Notes under the pieces: generated by a model
What the model was told of the DNA's origin: nothing
The model's database searches: none
The model's input: only the letters and a program-made list of their open reading frames with translations
Shown: piece after piece, positions 1,968-33,837 of the stretch
How positions within the stretch are numbered: position 1 is the stretch's first letter
Layout of the letters: every line of letters starts with the position of its first letter
DNA from: a virus
Virus record (IMG/VR): IMGVR_UViG_3300029267_003252
Location: 1 to 33,837 of that record
DNA length: 33,837 bases
Reading direction: 5' to 3' (one strand)
Made by a program: the position numbers and the translations under genes

Positions 1968-3239
1968 ATGGCAGAGGCGGCGCGGAAACTAAAGGACCCG
2001 CCGGTCCGAGACACCAAGCTCAAATGGTGGCTCCGGGCCCGGGGGATCCGGGCGGAGGACCTGGCCCAGGCACTCGGGAGGGCGAGGTCGATCGTGGTCA
2101 ACCTTTTAAATGGACGGGGCAAATGGCCGAGCTGGGGATTTCGGGACGAAAAGCTGCTCCGGGATTTTCTCAAGCGGCACAAGCTCGACCGCAAGGCTGC
2201 CCTGGAGCCGGCCACCGAGGAGGAAATCTCGGCGGCCCAGGAGGAAATGACCATTCGCGGCTTCACCCACTGGGCGGCATTTAAAGTCAACGGAATAGTT
2301 GACCGGCGGGTGAATCCAAAAAGGGAGGCAAAGGTGCGGGGAAAAAAGAAAACCGGAAGGGAGGTAGAACCAGAGATGCTGTCTTTCGAGGCGATAAATC
2401 ATTTTCGGCTTAAAGCCGATCCATTCACCAACGAGATCCGGGGGAAGTCGGACGTTTTCTTCAACGAGGAAAACACCACGATCAAGCAGGCCATCCTCGG
2501 GGCCGCGAAAAACCAGGGCCTCCTGGCCCTGATCGGCGAGGTCGGCTCGGGGAAGTCGACCATCCTCCAGGCCGCCCTGGGATCGCTCAACGGCGACGAC
2601 TCGATCCAGGTGATCTTTCCCCAGGCGGTGGCCAAGGAGCGGCTGACCGCGGTGCAGATCACCGAGGCCATCGTCCGGGACCTCAATCCCACCGCCGTCC
2701 CCCGGGCCGCGGTCGAGGCCCGGAGCCGCCAGGTCCGGGAGCTGCTGGAGGCCCGCGCCGGCGAGGGCGGGACCGCGGTTTTGATCCTGGAGGAGGCCCA
2801 CGCCCTGCCGATCACCACCATCCGCCAGCTCAAGCGCTTTTACGAGCTGACCCAGGCCCGGGGTTACCGCAAGCTCCTGGGGATCATCATGGTCGGCCAG
2901 CCCGAGCTGGAGGCCAAGTTCCGGAGCCACGAGATCCGCGAGGTGGCAAAGCGAGTCCGGGTGGTCAAGTTCGTCGGCCTCCCCAAGCGCAACGGGATCC
3001 AGAAATACCTCGAATTCAAGCTCAGCCGGGCCGGGGGCGACGCGGGCCGGATTTTCGACGGTGACGTTTACAGCCTGCTCTCCCGGGTCCGCTGGGCCGG
3101 CAACCCCCTCGACCTCAACAACATTGTCATCCGGGCCATGAACCAGGCGGTCCGGATAGGATCTCCCAAGATCACCCGGGAGATCATCGGCTCCATTCCC
3201 AACGTCGAGCTGGCGGAAAGGGGCGAAACCCGTGAATAA
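1968..3239 (+). CDS. MuB-like AAA+ transposition ATPase
   Basis: Probable target-selecting ATPase that binds DNA and delivers target to the transposase. From the ATG at 1968 it is 423 aa. Residues about 20-55 resemble an XRE-like HTH (GIRAEDLAQALGRA), as in the N-terminal domain of Mu B. A Walker A motif GEVGSGKST lies near residues 190-198 and a Walker B motif LILEEAH near 273-279, followed by a sensor-like IIMVGQPEL, typical of the TniB/ExeA-like AAA group. It is longer than Mu B (312 aa), mainly through the N-terminal part and a linker around residues 105-135. A GTG at 1959 overlaps the AGGAGGG site, so the ATG 9 nt downstream of that site is preferred. The 3' end overlaps the next gene by 8 bp. 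Confidence 0.88.
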   Translation: MAEAARKLKDPPVRDTKLKWWLRARGIRAEDLAQALGRARSIVVNLLNGRGKWPSWGFRDEKLLRDFLKRHKLDRKAALEPATEEEISAAQEEMTIRGFTHWAAFKVNGIVDRRVNPKREAKVRGKKKTGREVEPEMLSFEAINHFRLKADPFTNEIRGKSDVFFNEENTTIKQAILGAAKNQGLLALIGEVGSGKSTILQAALGSLNGDDSIQVIFPQAVAKERLTAVQITEAIVRDLNPTAVPRAAVEARSRQVRELLEARAGEGGTAVLILEEAHALPITTIRQLKRFYELTQARGYRKLLGIIMVGQPELEAKFRSHEIREVAKRVRVVKFVGLPKRNGIQKYLEFKLSRAGGDAGRIFDGDVYSLLSRVRWAGNPLDLNNIVIRAMNQAVRIGSPKITREIIGSIPNVELAERGETRE

Positions 3240-4299
3240 ATACCAGCGGATAATCAAGCGGGAGGCCGGGAAATACGGCCTGGACCCGGGCCTGATCCGG
3301 GCCCAGATCACCCAGGAGAGCGCCTGGGACCCCCGGGCCGAGTCTCACTGCGGGGCCCGGGGGCTGATGCAGCTCATGCCCGCCACCGCCCTCGAGGTTG
3401 CCGAGTGGCTCCACTTGACCAGGGAGCCCGATCTTTTCGACCCCGACACCAACATCCGGCTGGGGGCCGCTTACCTGGCCTACCAGATCAAGTGCTTCCC
3501 CGAGATCCCGGACGACCTGGAGCGGGTCAAGTTCGGCCTGGGGGCCTACAACGGCGGCCGGGGCTACATCAACAAGGCGATCAGGCTGGCCCGGGAGGAC
3601 TGCCGCCGGCTCCCCCTGGTCTCCGCCCGGGACATCGCCGAGCACCGGCACGCCCTCCACCCCCCGGGGTCGCAGTGGTGCCGGGACCTTTACAGCCGCA
3701 TGGACGCCTGGCAGGTCTGGACGTTTTCCAGCCGCTACCTGGCCGACCCCCGCTGTAAAGTCAAAGGCCGCCGGCCGGACCACAAACAGATCACCGACTA
3801 CGTCCGCAAAATCATCATCGGCTGGCTGGGGTCGCCCGGGTGGGCGGCGACGCAGACCGGGAGCGGGAGCAACGGCCGGACCCGGACGGCGGGGACGGCG
3901 GAGCCGACGATCAACGCCGCCAAGGGGTGCGCCGTCCGTCCCGGGGTGAGCTACGGCCCGGCCCCCTACGGGGTCAAAAACCGCCTCCGGCTGGAGGCGA
4001 TATCCCGCGGGAGGCGTGGCAATGAACATCCGGACCCAACTGCTCATCCTTTATATATTGGCCGGCGCCGTTATGGCCGGCCTCTGGATATTCTCCAAGC
4101 TGATCACGGGGGGCTTTTAAATTGCGGGTCAAAGTCAGATGTCCCAAGTGCGGGGATACATTCGAGACCGAGGACCTCAACAGCCGGGGCACGGAGCTCG
4201 ACCGGCTCTTTAATGAGTACCTGGACCTCTTCCGCCCCCGGCGGGAGTCAAAACCTCCCTCCGGGGAGAAGCGCCTCCGGCTCCAGCGGGAGATCATAA
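3232..4299 (+). CDS. SLT-type lytic transglycosylase, possible phage endolysin
   Basis: Residues about 1-130 form a soluble lytic transglycosylase domain: the catalytic Glu is E29 in QESAWDP, followed by GARGLMQLMPATA and, near 105, AYNGG. It should cleave the MurNAc-GlcNAc bond of peptidoglycan. There is no signal peptide, so access to the wall would need a holin or the phage particle. The GTG start overlaps the end of the ATPase gene. Third-position GC stays high in this frame until about 4010, then collapses, while the frame of a 32-aa gene (4022-4120) and that of the next gene (4122) take over. The last 90 residues are therefore probably read-through. A one-base shift would end the protein at 4025, overlapping the small gene by ATGA. 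Position among early genes is unusual for a lysis enzyme. Confidence 0.85.
   Translation: MNKYQRIIKREAGKYGLDPGLIRAQITQESAWDPRAESHCGARGLMQLMPATALEVAEWLHLTREPDLFDPDTNIRLGAAYLAYQIKCFPEIPDDLERVKFGLGAYNGGRGYINKAIRLAREDCRRLPLVSARDIAEHRHALHPPGSQWCRDLYSRMDAWQVWTFSSRYLADPRCKVKGRRPDHKQITDYVRKIIIGWLGSPGWAATQTGSGSNGRTRTAGTAEPTINAAKGCAVRPGVSYGPAPYGVKNRLRLEAISRGRRGNEHPDPTAHPLYIGRRRYGRPLDILQADHGGLLNCGSKSDVPSAGIHSRPRTSTAGARSSTGSLMSTWTSSAPGGSQNLPPGRSASGSSGRS
4022..4120 (+). CDS. 32-aa single-span membrane peptide
   Basis: A short gene below usual ORF cut-offs. The ATG at 4022 has GGGAGG about 6 nt upstream, and the frame ends at TAA 4118-4120. The product begins MNIRTQ and continues with about 18 hydrophobic residues (LLILYILAGAVMAGLWIF), then SKLITGGF: one membrane span and almost nothing else. 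It overlaps the 3' part of the transglycosylase frame exactly where that frame loses its coding signal, and the next gene starts 1 nt after its stop. This tight packing supports translation. A role as a lysis accessory (holin or pinholin) for the neighbouring transglycosylase is inference only. Confidence 0.6.
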   Translation: MNIRTQLLILYILAGAVMAGLWIFSKLITGGF

Positions 4300-6232: not shown

Positions 6233-6763
6233 ATGATGAATCCGCAATCCGCAAAGGATTCCCCCGAGCAAGACTCGGGGGCTACCCTTGGATCGGGGGC
6301 TACCCTTGGATCGGGGGCTACCCTTGGATCGGGGGCTACCCTTGGATCGGGGGCTACCCCGCCGGGCCGCGATCGGAAGGTCAACGCTCATATCTGGTAC
6401 GTCGCCGGGAAGCTCGGGCTCACTAACGCCCAGGTAACGGATATCAACCGCTACCTCAACAACTGCCGGGTCAGCCAGAACACGCCGGCCAAGGACGCTA
6501 AGCTCCTGGCCGACCTGAAAAAGCGGCGGCGGCCGCGGAAGCGCTACCACCGCAAGCTGAAATTTAACGAGCAGATCACCCCCGCCCAGGAGACGATGAT
6601 CAACGCCCTGGCCGCAGACCTAAATCTCTCCCTGCCGCACCGCCAGGGCGTGGTCCGCCGGGCCTGCGGCCGGGCCTGGCCCCAGTCCAAAGGCGAAGCC
6701 GACCAGGTGATCGCGGCGCTGAAATCAATGCTCCGCCGCCGAGAGCAGAAGGCAAGTCAATAA
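6233..6763 (+). CDS. GemA/Mu gp16-like protein with repeat-encoded N-terminus
   Basis: Residues about 47-176 fit the Mu gp16/GemA-type family (DUF1018): AHIWYVAGKLGLTNAQVTDI near the start, ITPAQETMINALAADLNLS in the middle and a C-terminal CGRAWPQSKGEADQVIAALK. In Mu, GemA modulates host gene expression and supercoiling. The first 46 residues are translated from an AATCCGCA array, the CCCCCGAG palindrome and an 18-bp tandem repeat, giving five GSGATL-type units. The annotated start is the first ATG of an AAAGGATGATG sequence; no convincing alternative exists closer to the conserved domain, so either the repeat is translated or a weak internal start is used. Confidence 0.65.
   Translation: MMNPQSAKDSPEQDSGATLGSGATLGSGATLGSGATLGSGATPPGRDRKVNAHIWYVAGKLGLTNAQVTDINRYLNNCRVSQNTPAKDAKLLADLKKRRRPRKRYHRKLKFNEQITPAQETMINALAADLNLSLPHRQGVVRRACGRAWPQSKGEADQVIAALKSMLRRREQKASQ
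6275..6359. repeat. 18-bp tandem repeat (TCGGGGGCTACCCTTGGA), about 4.7 copies
   Basis: Exact units begin at 6275, 6293, 6311 and 6329, with a partial one from 6347. The unit is the right half of the upstream CCCCCGAG..CTCGGGGGCTACCC palindrome plus TTGGA, so the array looks like local expansion from palindrome copy 3 (6261-6287). Because 18 is divisible by 3, the reading frame of the GemA-like gene is preserved. Confidence 0.92.
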
Positions 6764-7009: not shown

Positions 7010-7043
7010 TTGACAAACGCCCGGACATCTGCCAGGATATAGT
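7010..7043 (+). promoter_or_regulatory. Candidate sigma-70-type promoter (middle promoter)
   Basis: A perfect -35 hexamer TTGACA lies at 7010-7015. Downstream, AGGATATAGTTG offers a -10 as GGATAT (7035-7040, 19-bp spacing) or TATAGT (7038-7043, 22-bp spacing). Neither spacing is ideal, which suggests weak or activator-dependent activity. Transcription would start near 7047-7050, right at the first base of the leader helix described below. Confidence 0.45.
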
Positions 7044-7047
7044 TGAT

Positions 7048-7169
7048 GCACACGGGAGCCAAAAACCAGAGATTACCGGGGAGCGAGGGCGGCGAAAGCC
7101 GACGGCCTCACTCCCGTGTGCCCGGCGAGTACCCGCCCTCAGCCCCCGGAAAACACGGGAGGAAAAATG
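7048..7169 (+). promoter_or_regulatory. Structured mRNA leader with mutually exclusive pairings at the ribosome-binding site
   Basis: GCACACGGGAG (7048-7058) is perfectly complementary to CTCCCGTGTGC (7111-7121), an 11-bp helix. It encloses a hairpin with GAGG (7085-7088)/CCTC (7106-7109) and CGGC-GAAA-GCCG (7090-7101, GNRA loop). The same core, ACACGGGAG, recurs at 7153-7161, where its GGGAGG is the ribosome-binding site of the next gene, and again at 7201-7209 inside that gene. CTCCCGTGT can therefore pair with the 5' segment (site free) or with the ribosome-binding site (site hidden). This is the expected layout of a translational switch. I do not recognise a known riboswitch class. Confidence 0.55.
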
Positions 7170-7397
7170 GCATGGGAACCGACAGAGTGGGCGTGTGGCC
7201 ACACGGGAGCGATGCAGCTGTACGGCAAGCGAGCCGGCCGGGACAGCCGGGTGGCGTATGAGGCAGGCCGCAAGTGCATGGCCTGCTGGCTGATCGAGCG
7301 GTGGGAGGCCGAGTCTGATCCCCGAGCCGCGCGGGCCGACAGGATGGATCTTGCTGTATCGATTGCCGCCGGCAAGGGCATCCGCATCAGGATGTGA
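7167..7397 (+). CDS. Small Cys/His protein downstream of the leader
   Basis: 76 aa from the ATG at 7167, preceded by GGGAGG and five A. The sequence shows WACGHTGAMQLYG, then AGRKCMACWLIERWE, and a helical tail RADRMDLAVSIAAGKG. The pattern C9-x-H11 followed by C38-x2-C41 could hold a zinc ion. A longer reading from 7116 would run through the structured leader and is not supported. It is the first gene after the promoter at 7010. Such CGHxG/CxxC proteins occur in phage middle regions without known function; I cannot assign one. Confidence 0.65.
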   Translation: MAWEPTEWACGHTGAMQLYGKRAGRDSRVAYEAGRKCMACWLIERWEAESDPRAARADRMDLAVSIAAGKGIRIRM

Positions 7398-7424: not shown

Positions 7425-7739
7425 ATGAAAACGCAATGGATGAGCAAAGGTATGCACGAGCACCCGGCAAAGCACCAAAAGGGTACCTTCGGCCGCGTCG
7501 CCCTCTCGCAGGCGGGGGCATACGGCCTGATGCAAGGCAATGTCTGGATGAGCTGCCCCCAGGGGTGGGCGGCGGCGATCCACGCCGCCGAGACCCGCGA
7601 GGATCGGGGCTGGAGCCAGGAGTCACTCGCCCACGCGCTGGGAGTTTCCGTCCGCACTCTCGCGCGCTGGGAGTCGGGCGAGGCCCAGCCCTCGCAGCTG
7701 GCGCGGGAACAGATCAAAAAACTCCTCGAGGACGCGTAA
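7425..7739 (+). CDS. XRE-type HTH regulator, candidate late-gene regulator
   Basis: 104 aa. Residues about 52-100 are an HTH_XRE domain: AAETREDRGWSQESLAHALGVSVRTLARWESGEAQPSQL is the Cro/CI-type helix-turn-helix with the usual SxxxLAxxLGVSxxTLxRWExG pattern. The N-terminal 45 residues (KTQWMSKGMHEHPAK..., VWMSCPQGW) are unassigned. The start has AAAGGAGGA 8 nt upstream. It is the last gene before the terminator at 7767 and the first late element at 7795, the position of the middle activator gene C in Mu. Mu C is of the Mor family, so equivalence of role is inference from position only. Confidence 0.75.
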   Translation: MKTQWMSKGMHEHPAKHQKGTFGRVALSQAGAYGLMQGNVWMSCPQGWAAAIHAAETREDRGWSQESLAHALGVSVRTLARWESGEAQPSQLAREQIKKLLEDA

Positions 7740-7766
7740 AAAAATAATTCGGGAATTTTCCCCCAG

Positions 7767-7797
7767 CCCCGGCATTACCTGCCGGGGTTTTTGTTTT
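7767..7797 (+). terminator. Rho-independent terminator ending the early/middle operon
   Basis: CCCCGGCA (7767-7774), loop TTACC, TGCCGGGG (7780-7787): a perfect 8-bp GC-rich stem followed by TTTTTGTTTT. It lies 27 nt after the XRE regulator stop and immediately before the repeated late element. Confidence 0.9.
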
Positions 7798-7880
7798 CTT
7801 TCCCCAAAAATACCAGAAACTTTTTCTGCCAATTTTGCCAGGAGTGTTAGACATCCGCGCCTCCTGACGGTTTAGTTGGA
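7795..7880 (+). promoter_or_regulatory. Repeated non-coding element, copy 1 (candidate late promoter)
   Basis: Aligns without gaps to 14097-14182 (constant offset 6302). The central 30 bp (7826-7855), including TTTTGCCAGGAGTGTTAGAC, are identical. A 12-bp variable stretch of the same length follows, then an identical CGGTTTAGTTGGA. The two copies lie just after a terminator and before the lysis/packaging block, and just before the protease/scaffold gene, the positions of the Mu late promoters Plys and PI. No good -35/-10 pair is visible, which would fit activator-dependent promoters. Direct repeat TGCCA-ATTT-TGCCA (7827-7840) could be a binding site. Confidence 0.6.
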
Positions 7881-7943: not shown

Positions 7944-8387
7944 ATGGATTTTATCGTTAATGGGGCTTTATCGGTGGCGGCGGTTTTGATCGCGGCGGGG
8001 CTGACCGCCCTGGTCAGCCTGGCCGCCTGGCGGATCTTCAAGTACAAGATCCCCGCTGATAAGGAGGCTACCATCCGCCGGACCCTCCAGAACTTCATCC
8101 TCCAGGCGGAGGAGAAATATCTCAAGAGGGAAATCACCGACAAGTTTCACTGGGTCTGGGGCCAGGCCCTGAAAAAGTTCCCCGGCCTGGGGAGCCTCGA
8201 GGTCACCGACCTGATCCACCAGGAGATCCCCAAGCTCGCCCCCCTGGGCGTCGGCCTGGCGGGAAAAGACCTGCTAAAAAAAACTCAACTCTCCTTGCCG
8301 TTGACCGGACCGGGGTCTGGGGCGGCCTCCGCTACGGGCGGGGGAAATGGAACGCCTCAGCCCTCGGCGGCTACGACTGGAGATTAA
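7944..8387 (+). CDS. Holin-like membrane protein
   Basis: 147 aa. One strong membrane span sits at residues about 6-30 (VNGALSVAAVLIAAGLTALVSLAAW), followed by an amphipathic helical region (RTLQNFILQAEEKYLKREITDKFHWVWGQALKKF) and a Gly/Ala/Thr-rich C-terminal tail. This arrangement, one N-terminal span then AEEK-type helices, resembles LL-H-type holins (superfamily 6), which export or activate an endolysin. The start has GGAGGTGA 6 nt upstream. It is the first gene after the first late element, where Mu has its lysis genes. Alternative: a general phage membrane protein; the holin call is moderate. Confidence 0.55.
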   Translation: MDFIVNGALSVAAVLIAAGLTALVSLAAWRIFKYKIPADKEATIRRTLQNFILQAEEKYLKREITDKFHWVWGQALKKFPGLGSLEVTDLIHQEIPKLAPLGVGLAGKDLLKKTQLSLPLTGPGSGAASATGGGNGTPQPSAATTGD

Positions 8388-33251: not shown

Positions 33252-33326
33252 AGCGGAGTGGAGGAGTGGTCACCTTGGGAGGTTCATACCCTCCAGACGT
33301 CGGTTCGAATCCGGCCTCCGCAACCA
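33252..33326 (+). tRNA. tRNA-Met (CAT), initiator-like
   Basis: All arms can be folded. The acceptor stem AGCGGAG pairs with CTCCGC at six positions and 1:72 is an A-A mismatch. D arm GAGG/CCTT with an 8-nt loop containing GG. Anticodon stem GGAGG/CCTCC with loop TTCATAC, anticodon CAT. A 4-nt variable region AGAC. T arm GTCGG/CCGGC with loop TTCGAAT. Discriminator A and encoded CCA. The unpaired 1:72 position and A11-T24 pair are bacterial initiator marks, and the T arm and 3' end match bacterial tRNA-fMet closely. The third mark, three G-C pairs next to the anticodon loop, is incomplete (AGG/CCT). It may be phage-carried or flanking host DNA. Confidence 0.82.
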
Positions 33327-33442: not shown

Positions 33443-33542
33443 ATCTCACCTAATTAAACCGCCGGGATTCAAACGATGGTTTGATTTTTCGGCAAAATGC
33501 GACAAGTGTCGTTTTCGGCCCTGCTTTTCGCGTCGCTGCTCA
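33443..33542. repeat. Left arm of a perfect 100-bp inverted repeat
   Basis: Begins ATCTCACCTAATTAAACC and ends GTCGCTGCTCA. Identical to the reverse complement of 33738-33837. The arm itself contains two small dyads, TCAAAC-GATG-GTTTGA (33469-33484) and CGACA-AG-TGTCG (33500-33511). Confidence 0.97.
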
Positions 33543-33737: not shown

Positions 33738-33837
33738 TGAGCAGCGACGCGAAAAGCAGGGCCGAAAACGACACTTGTCGCATTTTGCCGAAAAATCAAA
33801 CCATCGTTTGAATCCCGGCGGTTTAATTAGGTGAGAT
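33738..33837. repeat. Right arm of the 100-bp inverted repeat, at the window edge
   Basis: Reverse complement of 33443-33542 over all 100 bases; the arm's last base is the last base of the window. Arms plus 195-bp centre form a 395-bp unit like a miniature inverted-repeat element, or mark a fold-back or repeat-collapse end of the contig. Confidence 0.97.

Follow-up and report, generated by a model that had tools for sequence, protein, structure and literature searches.

A candidate alternative-pairing leader in front of a two-gene operon of a Mu-like phage

In a phage record where six successive genes follow one another closely (intergenic distances of -4 to 19 nt), what does the 174-nt gap that follows them contain, and could it control the small two-gene operon at whose 5' side it lies? 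The window studied here, i.e., the whole stretch of DNA at its full length of 33,837 bases, is a virus record which was assigned to a transposable (Mu-like) phage on the basis of its gene content: two transposition proteins, a Gam-like protein and a weak match to PHROG 286, which from its gene position reads as GemA-like, followed by terminase, portal and head genes. A transglycosylase (SLT) gene (3232-4299) is also found among the early genes, adjoining the transposition genes.

The gap is filled by a leader (all stranded features are given on the plus strand), and the order of elements is a promoter-like site, the leader, the gene of a putative zinc-binding protein, a helix-turn-helix gene and an intrinsic terminator. 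The first gene (7167-7397) encodes a small protein of 76 amino acids, which displays a C-x-H ... C-x2-C pattern suggestive of a zinc site and weakly matches PHROGs 16123 and 3036, both of unknown function. The second (7425-7739) encodes an HTH_3 (Cro/C1-type) protein of 104 amino acids (Pfam PF01381, E = 3.6e-11), a possible regulator of the operon, which is closed by a 10-bp terminator stem with a T run (7765-7789). Judged from the promoter-like site, leader, two genes and terminator together, this operon looks like a separate, self-contained transcription unit.

The promoter-like site (7010-7038) comprises TTGACA (7010-7015), a 17-nt spacer ending in TGC, and CAGGAT (7033-7038). The -35 element is exact and an extended -10 TGn is present (TGcCAGGAT), but the -10 hexamer matches the consensus at only three of six positions, which explains why the site was absent from an automatic consensus promoter scan and why the promoter is to be regarded as unproven. 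The preliminary description, made from the letters of the DNA, had placed the start of transcription at the first base of the 5' helix; the spacing of the putative promoter indeed suggests a start at about 7045-7048, with the poor -10 as the weak point of this claim, and the mRNA would then open with about 120 untranslated bases. The putative -10 region contains TGCCAGGA, which is met again at 7836-7843, after the operon terminator and upstream of the gene at 7944, and might there belong to a second promoter; this motif shows no enrichment in the window. A leader peptide, or an N-terminal extension of the small protein, was considered, the reading frame being open from 7047, and rejected, as the relatives of the 76-aa protein all start at the same MAW.

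Within the leader, one segment, hereafter the hub (CTCCCGTGTGC, 7111-7121), is complementary to three others. It pairs exactly over 11 bp with the 5' arm GCACACGGGAG (7048-7058), which would constitute the first bases of the transcript and itself resembles the ribosome-binding site. Its first nine bases (7111-7119) pair exactly with ACACGGGAG at 7153-7161, within the copy ACACGGGAGG (7153-7162) that carries the GGAGG (7158-7162) of the ribosome-binding site. Finally, 7111-7120 pairs over 10 bp with a further copy, CACACGGGAG (7200-7209), inside the gene at codons 12-15, where it encodes H-T-G-(A) of a conserved CGHxGA motif and is overlapped by a perfect 14-bp palindrome, CGTGTGGCCACACG (7192-7205), one of six palindromes of that size in the window. 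The first two pairings, and a copy of the 9-mer within the gene (7201-7209), had been correctly located in the preliminary description. The exact 9-mer ACACGGGAG occurs at four sites in the 33.8-kb record, all of them here and one inverted, and the likeness of the two flanks extends beyond it, since 13 of 15 positions are identical between 7050-7064 and 7153-7167. The hub is thus a single segment with two mutually exclusive partners, one of which lies on the ribosome-binding site, as in translational leaders that work by alternative pairing.

Folding predictions modified this picture. The first 74 nt (7048-7121) were predicted to form the 11-bp stem enclosing a GNRA (GAAA) hairpin (7085-7109), with a better fold than 200 of 200 shuffled sequences (z = -3.3). 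This helix and its hairpin had been drawn correctly, but a stronger competing stem had been overlooked. This stem, named L, joins 7076-7092 (CCGGGG..GCGAGGGCGG) to 7133-7149 (CCGCCCTC AG CCCCCGG) through 16 pairs, ends 3 nt before the ribosome-binding-site copy and is the strongest element of the leader, with a duplex energy of -33.2 versus -21.4 kcal/mol for the 5' hairpin drawn earlier. It displaces the GNRA hairpin in the minimum-energy fold once position 7150 is included, and places the hub in its own loop. The region containing it (7070-7170) gave z = -2.7 against shuffled sequences; the whole 168-nt leader region gave z = -0.9, no better than shuffles.

Stem L and the 11-bp 5' helix have no base in common and can therefore coexist as an H-type pseudoknot. 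The helix between hub and ribosome-binding site, which as a nested fold lies 7-9 kcal/mol above the most stable one, could form on the scaffold of stem L as a second pseudoknot, 3 nt downstream of L. Both pseudoknots are inferred. Rough sums gave about -69 kcal/mol for L with the 5' helix and about -67 kcal/mol for L with the hub on the ribosome-binding site, to be compared with -67.5 kcal/mol for the best nested ensemble; these sums are additive and include an assumed pseudoknot penalty of about 9.6 kcal/mol. By this rough arithmetic, closure of the ribosome-binding site by the hub in a pseudoknot is plausibly competitive, the gaps being within the error of the sums. When stem L is formed, the ribosome-binding site is predicted to be open, at a cost of 1.4 kcal/mol to clear it; with the 5' helix and no stem L, it would be partly closed by a local hairpin with 7143-7148, at a cost of 7.2 kcal/mol to open. 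The two-state switch proposed in the preliminary description thus kept its alternative pairing and its setting as a leader, with its own promoter-like site, a ribosome-binding site and an independent operon. As drawn, it is not what the folds predict: its closed state is unfavorable when nested, stem L is what actually competes with the GNRA hairpin, and in its 5'-helix state without L the ribosome-binding site is not free.

A cis-acting leader that controls translation by alternative pairing is, in our opinion, the most likely reading of this locus, ahead of a passive structure and of a DNA operator, with a probability of about 0.4. One hub segment (7111-7121) would then set the translation of the zinc-type protein. 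Stem L would act as a scaffold lifting the hub into a loop between two near-identical flanks, the 5' end and the ribosome-binding site. As long as the hub held the 5' end, in the H-type pseudoknot of L and the 5' helix, the ribosome-binding site would stay open; were some trigger to hide, remove or bind the 5' end, the hub could close the site. With this presumed direction of control, the default state would be open, because the 5' helix forms first during transcription. In a more specific proposal, the message would begin with a decoy copy of its own ribosome-binding site, a hub in the loop of a scaffold hairpin would pick one of two pseudoknots, and translation would report whether the 5' end is free; in itself, this is improbable.

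The main competitor is a passive structured 5' region, in which the 5' hairpin and stem L would stabilize the mRNA or be mere by-products of a G+C-rich sequence, with no switching, and in which the repeated GGGAG would be the Shine-Dalgarno core and, in the gene, codons of the conserved motif. We hold this to be possible, and several observations are in line with it. Exact inverted repeats of 11 bp within 80 nt turned up in 60% of shuffles and are unremarkable alone, and the folding of the leader as a whole is average (see above). Two of the copies are partly explained otherwise, GGGAG being the Shine-Dalgarno core and GGGAGC coding the conserved G-A; the homologue L001 likewise uses GGGAGC for this G-A of the CGHxGA motif. 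On the other hand, neither the Shine-Dalgarno sequence nor codon constraint accounts for ACAC within the repeats, and sets of four copies are rare by chance: a direct-inverted-direct-direct 9-mer set within 170 nt arose in one of 300 dinucleotide-preserving shuffles (three-copy sets in 6%), in a test that was designed after the motif had been seen. Copies lie where transcription would begin and on the ribosome-binding site, a suggestive placement. The alternative-pairing geometry is real, and pure chance is an unlikely explanation for it.

Related leaders were looked for, using homologues of the downstream gene, HTH genes, TnpB, the tape-measure protein and terminase. Relatives of the 76-aa zinc-type gene, with 62-74% identity, are present in eight viral contigs. 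The motif was absent from the upstream DNA of L001 (the same as L025), L002-L005, L026, L027, L028, L030 and L031, which is unrelated in sequence, and 398 genomes from the phylum of one distant relative yielded one weak match with an internal stop. The only near-identical record (L017/L018, IMGVR_UViG_3300017989_000654) begins only near position 8304 of the window and does not reach the leader, and no operon clearly corresponding to this one was seen upstream of terminase in other Mu-like relatives (L019-L023). When viral contigs were scanned for exact copies of both 10-base inner arms, separated by 40-65 nt, there was one match, L016, in which the full 11-bp arms form an inverted repeat (948-1009) upstream of a Cys-rich ORF of another phage. 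It was rejected as a homologue, since the inner sequence and the ribosome-binding-site copy are not shared and about one chance match is expected by our own estimate. The preliminary description had suggested a comparison with Rfam, in which no family matched the leader at the gathering score, and relaxing the threshold to E = 10 added nothing above chance level. As no homologous leader was found in the viral contigs, phages, plasmids and genomes searched, the pairings receive no support from covariation. The existence of relatives of the gene with no such leader is in line with a passive structure and shows that the leader is not an obligatory partner of the gene; its absence elsewhere does not show that it is functionless.

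The repeats may also be read at the DNA level, ACACGGGAG and its inverse being operators bound by a regulator, most simply the HTH_3 protein of the same operon, which would repress its own promoter. One copy lies at the inferred transcription start and the 14-bp palindrome overlaps the fourth copy, both in favor of such operators. Moreover, the succession of promoter, small gene, HTH gene and terminator is the layout of self-repressed phage operons such as acr-aca, in which the Aca sites are inverted repeats within the core promoter (PMC9410906). The present operon differs from these by a first gene with no matched function, and no convincing palindromic operator was found in the core promoter: no copy of the 9-mer lies inside the -35/-10 core, where the only 5-bp inverted repeat, CCGGG-12-CCCGG, differs in sequence and has a chance expectation of 0.8 per shuffle. 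In addition, the 9-mer has no palindromic symmetry, only its ACACG half falls within the palindrome of the gene, and the spacing between successive copies is irregular. We consider this explanation unlikely.

A further explanation would be that the leader RNA is bound by a protein, the HTH or the zinc-type one, which would repress or activate translation. Phage Mu Com binds the mom mRNA leader and thereby controls translation, and an RNA-binding role has reportedly been found for the HTH regulator Aca2. The present locus shares with com-mom a transposable phage, a small zinc-type protein and an mRNA leader structure at the ribosome-binding site, and the two operon products, one a small candidate zinc protein and the other an HTH protein, would suit such a role. 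However, neither Com nor Mom has an identified homologue here, homology searches gave no sequence link between either operon protein and Com or any known RNA-binding regulator, and, to our knowledge, the C-x-H ... C-x2-C pattern is not that of Com. The zinc-type protein is also unlikely to be a dedicated partner of the leader, because homologues of its gene have other leaders. Control by a bound protein thus appears quite unlikely.

Returning to alternative pairing in cis, we would place its nearest known designs, by analogy, among ermC-like attenuators and among type I toxin mRNAs whose competing folds include a pseudoknot that controls translation. In ermC-type translational attenuators, segments are chained (1:2 versus 2:3) and their pairing decides access to the ribosome-binding site, a logic that the present leader could share. 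Unlike ermC, it has no leader peptide with a Shine-Dalgarno sequence and start codon at the 5' segment, no ATG, GTG or TTG being located at a usable distance after the 5' GGGAG, and no drug-stalling logic. In type I toxin mRNAs (hok, aapA3, timP), as proposed here, several partners compete for one leader segment, and access to the ribosome-binding site depends on which of them it pairs with. The mutually exclusive folds of timP mRNA include a pseudoknot required for translation (PMC11228461), while in aapA3 transient hairpins form on the Shine-Dalgarno sequence (PMC6733600). These mRNAs encode small membrane toxins, whereas the C/H-containing 76-aa product is charged and soluble-looking, different from a small hydrophobic toxin. 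Type I systems also use an antisense RNA as antitoxin, and from the sequence alone none was identified here; the likeness is one of design, with no relation by sequence or covariation established. If real, the phage leader would offer a compact "decoy 5' end" design, to be added to the known means by which phages restrain operon translation, and would point to an uncharacterized small zinc-type phage protein in need of dosage control.

Other features of the record were observed outside this locus. A short tandem repeat, GGGGGCTACCCTTGGATC, is located at 6280-6360, within the 5' part of the ORF at 6233-6763. A tRNA-Met (CAT) gene (33252-33326) lies close to the right end of the record, and a perfect 100-nt inverted repeat (33443-33542 and 33738-33837, with 195 nt between the arms), whose second arm ends exactly at the end of the record, could be either a fold-back of the assembly or a genuine terminal feature.
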